Below are positions 8,165-34,759 of a stretch of 39,821 nucleotides of DNA, in pieces. A model generated the notes under the pieces. The model ran no database searches, had not been told where the DNA came from, and saw nothing but the letters and a program-made list of their open reading frames with translations. Where the stretch lies: assembly GCA_029255605.1 (NCBI GenBank), contig JANLJF010000077.1, forward strand, positions 1 to 39,821, written 5' to 3'. The translations under genes and the position numbers were made by a program. The stretch comes from Azovibrio restrictus. GTDB taxonomy: Bacteria > Bacteroidota > Bacteroidia > Chitinophagales > Chitinophagaceae. The number at the start of each line of letters is the position of its first letter. Position 1 is the stretch's first letter.

Positions 8165-8827
8165 CTAAGCTTCTTTGCTCTCTTTTACTATAGCCAGGCT
8201 GGCAGAACAGCCTATGCGCGTAGCACCGGCCTCTATCAGTTCTTTGGCAAATGCAAAGGTACGAATACCACCCGAAGCTTTTATGGCTACGGATGCAGGC
8301 AGATGGCTACGCATCAGTTTTACAGCATGTACGGAGGCGCCGGTTTCGGCATATCCGGTAGATGTTTTCATAAAGTCTATATGCACAGGTACATACAATT
8401 GGCAGCACTTTATAATTTCATCATCGGTCAGCACACCGCTTTCTATAATTATTTTAATGGCCCTACCTGTTTCATGTACTCTTTCTGTACACGCAGCTAC
8501 TTCTTTATGCAGGTAGTCCCAGTTTTGCTCTTTTACGGCTGCTATGTTGTGCACCATATCTATTTCATCAGCACCGGCTGCCAGGGCTTCGTCTATTTCC
8601 TGCAGTTTCGATGCTATGGTAGTATAGCCAATGGGGAAACCCGCTACGGTAGCCACTTTTACCGCGCTGCCTTCTAGCATCGTTTTGGCCTGCACTACAA
8701 AATATGGGGGAACGCAAACGGCTGCGAAATGATGCGTTAATGCATCCTCACACAGCCGTTTTATATCGCCACTAGTAGTGGTTGGTTTTAGTATCGTATG
8801 ATCGATGTACGATGCAATATCCTGCAT
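8165..8827 (-). CDS. deoC: Deoxyribose-phosphate aldolase
   Basis: Class I aldolase of 220 residues, normal length. Diagnostic blocks are IDHTILKP at the start, DEIDMVHNIAAVKEQNW, KIIIESGVLTDDEI, DFMKTSTGY (the lysine that forms the Schiff base lies in this MKTSTG segment) and IKASGGIR. The enzyme splits 2-deoxyribose-5-phosphate to acetaldehyde and glyceraldehyde-3-phosphate in deoxynucleoside salvage. The ATG overlaps the last base of the isocitrate dehydrogenase stop codon (TAATG arrangement), so it is probably translated by re-initiation after icd. No other deo gene is nearby. Confidence 0.96.
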   Translation of the reverse strand: MQDIASYIDHTILKPTTTSGDIKRLCEDALTHHFAAVCVPPYFVVQAKTMLEGSAVKVATVAGFPIGYTTIASKLQEIDEALAAGADEIDMVHNIAAVKEQNWDYLHKEVAACTERVHETGRAIKIIIESGVLTDDEIIKCCQLYVPVHIDFMKTSTGYAETGASVHAVKLMRSHLPASVAIKASGGIRTFAFAKELIEAGATRIGCSASLAIVKESKEA

Positions 8828-10098
8828 TACAGGCTTTTTACTATTTCCCTTGCAAACTCACTTGTTTTCAGCAGAGTAGCATCATTCATCAGGTTGTAGA
8901 AGTCTATCGTTACACGTTTGCGCATGATGGTAGTACGTAGTGCTTCCAGTATGCAGTTTGCCGCTTCTTTCCAGCCCATATATTCCAGCATCATCACACC
9001 GCTCAGCAGCAGCGAAGATGGGTTCATGGTATCTGTATTGGCAAAGCGGGGTGCCGTACCATGCGTAGCTTCAAACACTGCATAGCCTGTTTTGTAGTTG
9101 ATGTTGGCACCCGGTGCGATACCTATGCCACCTACAGCCGCAGCCAGCGCATCAGATATGTAGTCGCCATTCAGGTTCAGCGTAGCTACTACTGAATAGT
9201 CTTTAGGGGCCAGCAGTATTTGCTGCAGGAAGTTATCGGCTATCACATCTTTTATAATCAGTTTGCCGTTTGCTTCTGCGCTTTTTATTTCTTCATTGGC
9301 AGCTTCTTCGCCTTTTTCTTTCTTCGCTTTTTCCCATTGCTCCCAGGTGTACACTTTATCGCCAAACTCGCGGGTAGCTACTTCATAACCCCAGGTTTTG
9401 AAGCCACCTTCGGTAAACTTCATAATGTTGCCCTTGTGCACCAGTGTTACCGATGGCCTGCGGTGCTCCAGCGCATACAGGATGGCTGCACGTACCAGGC
9501 GTTCTGAGCCTTCTTTAGAAACCGGCTTGATGCCGAATGAAGAGGATTCAGGGAAGCGTACTTTTTTAGAAACACCCATTTCATTGGTCAGGAAATCGAG
9601 CATTTTCTTAGCCTCCGGCGTACCTTCTTTAAATTCGATACCTGCGTAGATGTCTTCGGTATTCTCACGGAAGATAACCATATCTACATTTTCCGGGTGG
9701 CGTACCGGTGAAGGTACACCGTGGAACCATTGTACAGGGCGCAGACACACATACAGGTCCAGCTCCTGGCGCATAGCCACGTTCAGTGAGCGGATGCCAC
9801 CACCTACTGGTGTCGTCAATGGCCCCTTTATAGATACGATATATTCTTTAGCAGCTTCCAGTGTTTCAGCAGGCAGCCATTCACCTGTCTGGTTAAAGGC
9901 TTTCTCACCGGCCAGTATTTCTTTCCACTCTATTTTGCGTTTGCCACCATAGCATTTTTCCACCGCAGCATCCAGCACTAAACGGCTGGCGCTCCAAACA
10001 TCTGGGCCTATACCATCACCTTCTATAAATGGTATAATAGGATTTTCCGGCACGTTCAACAGGCCATCAGCGCCCATTGTTATTTTTTGTGGAGTCAT
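8827..10098 (-). CDS. icd: Isocitrate dehydrogenase, E. coli type, with atypical coenzyme-site residues
   Basis: Length is 423 residues, close to E. coli Icd (416). Substrate-site motifs are intact: [10 protein letters not shown] (Ser104 corresponds to the regulatory Ser113), [19 protein letters not shown] and [10 protein letters not shown]. It decarboxylates isocitrate to 2-oxoglutarate in the TCA cycle. The region after ATHGTAP aligns with E. coli without gaps. At the positions that hold the NADP 2'-phosphate (Lys344, Tyr345, Val351, Tyr391, Arg395) this protein has Arg351, Phe352, Met358, Ile398 and Asn402. These match neither the NADP set nor the usual NAD set (Asp/Ile), so coenzyme preference is uncertain. 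A second isocitrate dehydrogenase lies at 33530-34759. Confidence 0.96.
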
Positions 10099-33529: not shown

Positions 33530-34759
33530 TTATTTGCCCAGTTTTTTCTTCAGGTTTTCATCCAAAGCATCCAGGAATTCTTCTGTGTACAGGTAGTGTT
33601 CACCATGGCTCACTTTGTTGCCATGTACGCATACAGCAAGGTCTTTGGTCATTTTGCCACTTTCTACGGTTTCTATACATACTGCTTCCAGTGCGTTACA
33701 GAAATCTATCAGTGGTTGGTTGTTATCCAGCTTACCACGGAAAGCCAGACCACGTGTCCATGCGAAGATAGACGCGATAGGATTGGTAGAAGTAGGGTTG
33801 CCCTTCTGATGCTCGCGGTAGTGGCGTGTTACCGTACCATGTGCCGCTTCAGCTTCCATTGTTTTACCATCAGGTGTTATCAGTACAGATGTCATCAGGC
33901 CCAGTGAACCGAAGCCTTGTGCTACGGTGTCACTTTGCACATCGCCATCATAGTTTTTACAAGCCCATACAAAGTTGCCGTTCCATTTCAGTGCGCTGGC
34001 AACCATGTCATCTATCAGGCGGTGTTCGTATGTCAATTTGTTGGCATCAAACTCAGCCTTGAATTCGTTCTGATATACTTCTTCAAATATATCTTTAAAG
34101 CGGCCATCGTATTTTTTCAGGATGGTGTTTTTTGTAGACAGGTAAAGCGGCCATTTCTTTTGCAGTGCCATATTGAAGCAAGCACGTGCAAAACCACGGA
34201 TAGACTCATCGGTATTATACATAGCCATTGCTACGCCATCGCCTTTGAAGTTGTACACTTCATGCTCGATGGTTTCACCATTTTCACCTTCAAATTTGAT
34301 GGTCAGTTTGCCTTTACCTTTTACAACGAAATCGGTAGCTCGGTACTGATCGCCGAAGGCATGACGACCTACGATAATAGGCGCATCCCAGTTGGTAACC
34401 AGGCGAGGGATGTTATTGATAACGATAGGCTCGCGGAAAACCGTACCGTCCAGTATGTTACGGATAGTGCCGTTGGGGCTCTTCCACATTTGTTTCAGGC
34501 TGAATTCTTTTACGCGTTCTTCATCAGGAGTGATGGTAGCGCATTTGATACCTACACCATATTCTTTAATGGCATTGGCCGCATCTATGGTTACCTGGTC
34601 GCCTGTAGCATCACGATGCTCCACGCCAAGGTCGAAGTATTTTATGTCAACATCTATGTAGGGAGTTATCAGTTTATTCTTGATGAATTTCCAGATGATG
34701 CGTGTCATCTCATCGCCATCCAGTTCTACTACAGGATTAGCTACTTTGATTTTGCTCAT
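33530..34759 (-). CDS. icd: NADP-dependent isocitrate dehydrogenase, eukaryotic IDH1/2 type
   Basis: The 409-residue product matches the dimeric IDH1/2 subfamily over its length: [13 protein letters not shown] at the start, [10 protein letters not shown] (substrate Ser and Asn), [15 protein letters not shown], and [13 protein letters not shown] with metal-binding Asp. [21 protein letters not shown] follows and is split here as [14 protein letters not shown] and [17 protein letters not shown]. The Arg-His pair in VTRHY corresponds to human IDH1 Arg314 and His315, which bind the NADP 2'-phosphate, so NADP use is expected. It makes 2-oxoglutarate and NADPH. It is not homologous at close range to the E. 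coli-type enzyme at 8827-10098. Confidence 0.97.

Follow-up and report, generated by a model that had tools for sequence, protein, structure and literature searches.

Background

The change of isocitrate dehydrogenase (IDH) from NAD to NADP as coenzyme is a well-known ancient adaptation. Structure 1iso, whose PDB title describes an NADP-to-NAD reversal mutant, we take to be the E. coli enzyme that Chen et al. (1995) engineered for NAD.

NADP-specific enzymes of the E. coli type (type I), such as those of E. coli and B. subtilis, are marked by Lys344, Tyr345, Val351, Tyr391 and Arg395 (E. coli numbering is used unless stated otherwise), together with Arg292, which an extract of PMC8623467 includes among the E. 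coli NADP contacts and assigns to the second subunit (292' below). In the experiments of Chen et al. (1995), as reported in an extract of PMC5054688, mutation of positions 344, 345, 351, 391 and 395 turned E. coli IDH from NADP to NAD, the new residues being Asp, Ile, Ala, Lys and Ser. The naturally NAD-dependent IDH of Acidithiobacillus thiooxidans (2d4v) lacks Tyr345, Tyr391 and Arg395 and has Asp344-Ile345-Ala351, with Arg292 kept. Two type I enzymes that use both coenzymes are described in further literature extracts: MfIDH from Methylobacillus flagellatus, with Lys-Ile-Ala at 344/345/351, favours NAD 5-fold, and UmIDH from Umbonibacter marinipuiceus, with Arg-Leu-Val, differs by 2.3-fold in kcat/Km toward NADP and has a Km above 1 mM for NAD and NADP alike. 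Among the matches listed in a search of the open-licence literature, none dealt with a Chitinophaga or Sphingobacterium IDH or with the residue set described below, which is a weak negative.

The type I IDH of the window and its coenzyme site

By the window we mean the whole stretch of 39,821 nucleotides of DNA analysed. The coordinates given by the initial annotation, 8827-10098, contain a single open frame, which lies on the minus strand and codes for 423 residues. Over its whole length the product matches the type I profiles PRK07006 (683.5 bits, cut-off 490) and TIGR00183 (641.7 bits, cut-off 567.3), and among PDB sequences its best match is the B. subtilis enzyme (1hqs), followed by the NAD-dependent A. 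thiooxidans enzyme. Fold family, length and the catalytic and isocitrate-binding residues are those of the E. coli and B. subtilis NADP enzymes; in alignment with these two and with A. thiooxidans IDH, all ten of the positions checked, which we take to be the catalytic and isocitrate residues of type I IDH (Ser113, Asn115, Arg119, Arg129, Arg153, Tyr160, Lys230, Asp283, Asp307 and Asp311), are unaltered. This is the only type I IDH gene in the window's genome, in which no monomeric IDH was found. An AlphaFold model of the single chain (mean pLDDT 81.9) finds type I IDHs as its best structural matches at a TM score of 0.58 and an rmsd of about 15; with its domains misplaced in this way, the model was set aside as a guide to the coenzyme site.

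Table 1. Positions of the features discussed in the text, in coordinates of the window.
Feature	Position	Strand	Basis or remark
Deoxyribose-phosphate aldolase (deoC)	8165..8827	-	start overlaps IDH stop
Type I (E. coli-type) isocitrate dehydrogenase (IDH), coenzyme-site variant, 423 aa	8827..10098	-	PRK07006, TIGR00183, alignment
Asn402 codon (E. coli Arg395)	8893..8895	-	alignment
Ile398 codon (E. coli Tyr391)	8905..8907	-	alignment
Coenzyme-discriminating loop RFANTDTMN (E. coli 344-352; K344R, Y345F, V351M)	9022..9048	-	alignment
Ala297 codon (E. coli Arg292)	9208..9210	-	alignment; absent from the list in the initial annotation
Type II IDH, 409 aa, Arg-His NADP pair (HGTVTRHYR)	33530..34759	-	TIGR00127 737.7 bits, cut-off 397.15

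From His339 onward the window IDH aligns with the E. coli enzyme without gaps, and comparison with characterised enzymes bears out the earlier reading of positions 344, 345, 351, 391 and 395 as Arg, Phe, Met, Ile and Asn (R351, F352, M358, I398 and N402 in the numbering of the window protein). Tyr391 and Arg395 are indeed gone, replaced by Ile and Asn, and the Asp/Ile pair of NAD enzymes is likewise absent, Arg344-Phe345 standing in its place. The alignment adds a sixth changed position, since Arg292 of the partner subunit is matched by Ala297. Five polar contacts to the 2'-phosphate were considered (292', 344, 345, 391 and 395); four are lost, and only position 344 is still basic. The set R, F, M, I, N and A thus differs at every one of the six positions from the NADP-specific set, and Arg, Phe and Met differ at all three positions from the NAD-type set Asp344, Ile345 and Ala351.

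The window IDH shares with A. thiooxidans IDH the absence of Tyr345, Tyr391 and Arg395, but has none of the four residues Asp344, Ile345, Ala351 and Arg292 of that enzyme. It is altered at the same five positions as the mutant of Chen et al., with different letters and with the additional loss of Arg292. Like MfIDH and UmIDH, in a comparison that covers 344, 345 and 351, it has a basic residue at 344 and a residue other than Tyr at 345, but Phe/Met at 345/351 differ from the Ile/Ala and Leu/Val of the two dual enzymes, so that it matches their set at position 344 only, one position of three. Judged by profile score and catalytic residues it is a type I IDH, and by its residues it lies outside both the NADP group and the Asp-Ile-Ala NAD group.

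We propose that the gene probably encodes an active homodimeric type I IDH whose coenzyme was once NADP and is now mainly NAD. The initial annotation had allowed for NAD, for both coenzymes or for NADP used in a different way; the evidence now favours the first of these and leaves the second a lesser place. What favours NAD is the sixth changed position together with three lines of evidence described below, namely the conservation of the site in a clade, the near-universal presence of an NADP-type partner enzyme and the almost complete absence, from variant genomes of the family, of a long IDH that bears an NAD signature. In such an enzyme, deprived of four 2'-phosphate contacts, NADP would be bound poorly and NAD would no longer be at a disadvantage. 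NAD would sit in the ordinary cleft, where Phe345, Met351 and Ile or Val391 perhaps form an apolar packing round the adenosine without Asp344, and some residual use of NADP by way of Arg344 may persist. The variant IDH would then supply NADH from the TCA cycle to respiration, and a partner IDH (type II or monomeric) would supply NADPH.

A variant clade in Bacteroidota

We read 158 type I rows from Bacteroidota, most of them the top hits of the query when whole genomes and contigs were searched. With variant rows defined by Phe345 and Met351 and canonical rows by Tyr345, 102 are variant, 54 are canonical (Lys or Arg344 with Tyr345), two have Asn-Ile, and none is intermediate; the rows being best matches to the query, 102 of 158 is not an estimate of prevalence. 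The window's family, for which 147 genomes were searched, has 33 full-length type I genes, every one of them variant; two further genomes of the family (G417 and G438) have variant-like fragments only and are placed among the 114 without the variant. As the pattern recurs in the 102 rows and in all 33 type I genes of the family, it is more than a matter of chance. The variant set is found in records named Chitinophaga, Taibaiella, Edaphocola, Flavipsychrobacter, Ferruginibacter and Sphingobacterium; the seven Hymenobacter records are canonical.

Removal of identical rows and of L068, which is a truncated copy of the gene in L003, leaves 95 variant and 52 canonical unique rows. The variants have in common the motif [ANS]292, [RKQ]344, F345, M351, [IV]391 and [NKQ]395, with Ala (85), Asn (6) or Ser (4) at 292, Ile (79) or Val (16) at 391, and Asn (70), Lys (21) or Gln (4) at 395; all 52 canonical rows have Arg292, Tyr391 and Arg395. 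The five columns that best part the two groups are 292, 345, 351, 391 and 395, two of which (345 and 351) also served to define the groups, although a tree with the coenzyme columns masked yields the same group. NADP-pocket columns, which make up 44 of 404 positions, account for 9 of the top 25 separating columns (p 0.0005).

In the masked tree, a quick one, the 95 variants form one branch (SH-aLRT 92) that requires a single change. This branch lies beside canonical rows, with the reference sequences of E. coli and B. subtilis among them, and two canonical rows (L155 and L158) diverge earlier (SH-aLRT 85), in a tree whose root is one distant sequence. From this arrangement we consider a loss of the NADP site likelier than an ancestral state without it. 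It could be supposed instead that the gene is a relaxed or decaying paralogue, its coenzyme unfixed, with a second IDH doing the work, and such a second enzyme is found in nearly all variant genomes. This reading is hardly credible, and we have ruled out decay, because the replacement letters are conserved in a clade that is recovered without the coenzyme columns; the catalytic residues, moreover, are intact in every full-length type I row from Bacteroidota except L147. In that variant row (Chitinophaga sp. GbtcB8) the phosphorylatable Ser113 is replaced by Pro, a single case in which a sequence error is possible.

Position 344 speaks against the proposed NAD preference. It is Arg in 80, Lys in 13 and Gln in 2 of the unique variants, and is therefore basic in 93 of 95, which would not be expected under strong selection against NADP. 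The same residue would serve an enzyme that uses NAD and NADP with about equal efficiency, Arg344 giving leftover binding of the 2'-phosphate as in MfIDH or UmIDH. That dual-coenzyme enzymes exist with Lys-Ile-Ala or Arg-Leu-Val, and that the preference of UmIDH, with Arg at 344, and of MfIDH, with Lys, is no larger than the 2.3-fold and 5-fold given above by the extracts, count in favour of dual use and against a preference for NAD. On the other hand 292, 391 and 395 are altered in the window IDH as well, and the variant is conserved across a clade, whereas UmIDH, according to its extract, has a Km above 1 mM for both coenzymes. We regard dual use as rather unlikely, though it is the alternative that we take most seriously.

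A basic 344 would also suit an enzyme that is still NADP-specific and grips the 2'-phosphate anew with Arg351 (window numbering), basic residues near E. coli 386-387 and Asn402. Position 386 is Arg in 63 of the 95 unique variants, and both of the NCBI models matched (PRK07006 and TIGR00183) bear NADP-dependent in their names. These models, however, score the whole sequence and not the coenzyme site, and four of the five polar contacts are missing throughout the clade; retained specificity for NADP seems to us improbable.

Two observations concern individual rows. The two Asn-Ile sequences (L015 and L027, from genomes G337 and G340) are related Bacteroidota type I IDHs with Asn344-Ile345, Val351, His or Pro at 391, Arg395, Ile or Met at 292, and Asn for Gln288; neither of these genomes gave a match to type II or monomeric IDH. 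L124, identical in sequence to L037 (genome G519), is titled as a Phycisphaerales MAG, while its IDH falls inside the Bacteroidota variant clade; it is probably mislabelled or from a mixed bin.

A second, NADP-type IDH in the same genomes

The window carries a second IDH, of type II (Table 1), whose nearest solved relatives are named as NADP enzymes. The Arg-His pair, which an extract of PMC4360740 assigns to the type II NADP site, is kept in this copy and in 66 of 69 type II rows, the other three not being parsed. Of the 147 genomes of the window's family, 136 have a type II match that exceeds the cut-off.

We surveyed partner enzymes in 59 genomes picked from the searches (35 with the variant, 22 canonical and 2 others). 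A full type II gene is present in 29 of the 35 variant genomes as against 2 of 22 canonical genomes and neither of the others, and one more variant genome (G469) has a type II piece running off a contig end, which was counted as present. Of the five variant genomes without type II, three (G479, G002 and G346) have a monomeric IDH, an enzyme found in none of the other 30 variant genomes and in 1 of 22 canonical genomes (G375). The G002 enzyme retains the residues aligned to the NADP residues His589, Arg600 and Arg649 of the Azotobacter enzyme, and by eye those of G479 and G346 have the same NADP motifs. In a second collection searched for monomeric IDH, which overlaps the 59 genomes by at least two identical records, both Sphingobacterium variants were positive and the 33 others (21 variant and 12 canonical) were negative.

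A second NADP-type IDH of either kind, the G469 piece included, thus accompanies the variant in 33 of 35 genomes and the canonical enzyme in 3 of 22; as the variant is one clade, few independent events lie behind such associations, and Fisher values, being blind to kinship, overstate them. The three canonical genomes concerned (G072, G367 and G375) indicate that a partner IDH does not force the change of coenzyme site. With another NADP-type IDH in nearly every variant genome, little would be gained from a second user of NADP, which speaks against dual use, and the same near-constant partner speaks against an enzyme still specific for NADP. Two variant genomes run counter to the NAD reading in this respect, as neither type II nor monomeric IDH was found in G007 or G493.

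Two other features of these genomes were considered as guides. A strong, two-piece match to isocitrate lyase occurs in 1 of 35 variant genomes (G346) and in 8 of 22 canonical genomes; G002, G007, G493 and G503, all variant, give weak matches only, in frames of about 300 residues. According to an extract of PMC5909895, which cites Zhu et al. (2005), use of NADP by IDH is linked to growth on acetate, and the occurrence of variant and isocitrate lyase together in G346 is contrary to that link and counts against the NAD reading. We give little weight to the rule that an NAD IDH is found where the glyoxylate shunt is missing, as G346 breaks it and the counts cover no more than the 35 variant and 22 canonical genomes surveyed. 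Transhydrogenase (PNTB) was rejected as a discriminator, since 27 of 35 variant genomes and 12 of 22 canonical ones have a match that passes the cut-off, which gives no separation; in G000, G424 and G497 the match is in pieces.

A long IDH with an NAD signature

Most genomes of the window's family that lack the variant have a long IDH. It has about 485-500 residues, and its site is HGTAPDIAGKNIAN or differs little from it, which is the Asp-Ile-Ala signature of NAD enzymes. A close long IDH with the signature HGTAPDIAG..AN is present in 1 of the 33 variant genomes of the family (G469) as against 91 of the 114 others. Asp344 was seen in 29 of 30 close long-form loci read, one of them with Leu for Ile, and the remaining locus was not parsed. 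In this family, then, a type II enzyme of NADP type is usually paired with a long IDH of NAD type, and the variant is found mostly where the NAD-type one is missing. This distribution is the strongest hint that the variant uses NAD, and it also argues against retained specificity for NADP.

A less closely related long form, with about 42-46% identity to the close one, is present in some of the variant genomes. In G511 and G515 it reads Asp-Ile at the site, so that mutual exclusion is incomplete and the argument the weaker for it; 12 long forms with Asp-Ile were read in non-variant genomes. In four other variant genomes the more distant form is an IDH-like protein (L182-L185, from G007, G427, G091 and G463) with Arg-Arg, Lys-Arg, Arg-Arg and Leu-Ile, respectively, at the site instead of Lys-Tyr or Asp-Ile; the Thermus enzyme 2d1c, by comparison with the Arg-Arg of G007, has Lys-Tyr at 344/345. 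For L168 no long form was obtained.

A wider proposal, to which we would give slightly less than an even chance, is that the clade represents a natural reversal from NADP to NAD by a third chemical solution that dispenses with Asp344 ([RK]-F-x-x-T-x-[TS]-M, Ile or Val391, Asn, Lys or Gln395, and loss of Arg292). The reversal would have happened once, in a Bacteroidota ancestor that possessed a second NADP-linked IDH, and would have been kept as the partner changed (type II, monomeric, perhaps a long form), so that two enzymes divide the production of NADH and NADPH from isocitrate between them as in mitochondria. If this is true, a clade has undone the change from NAD to NADP with other residues and offers a natural replicate in which to test which residues are required and what permits a return to NAD, in this case probably the presence of a second NADP-linked IDH. 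The NADP label placed on the variant by the family models would then need correction as well, since with it metabolic models of Chitinophaga, Taibaiella, Sphingobacterium and their relatives would assign NADPH to the wrong enzyme.

Gene neighbourhood

Among variant loci with at least 1.3 kb of downstream sequence, 38 of 86 unique loci have a type II gene no more than 1 kb downstream, as against 0 of 33 canonical loci (the duplicate L068 removed), flank lengths differing between loci. Of these 38 adjacent genes, 36 are on the same strand and 32 are at most 350 bases away, counted from open frame to open frame. In the branch to which the window belongs, it is deoC and not the type II gene that follows IDH. 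On the minus strand at 8825-8829 the sequence TAATG combines the IDH stop and the deoC start, and because of this overlap the two genes probably share one transcript. A deoC match is present at 27 unique loci, and at 26 of them deoC is the next gene, on the same strand and within 150 bases.
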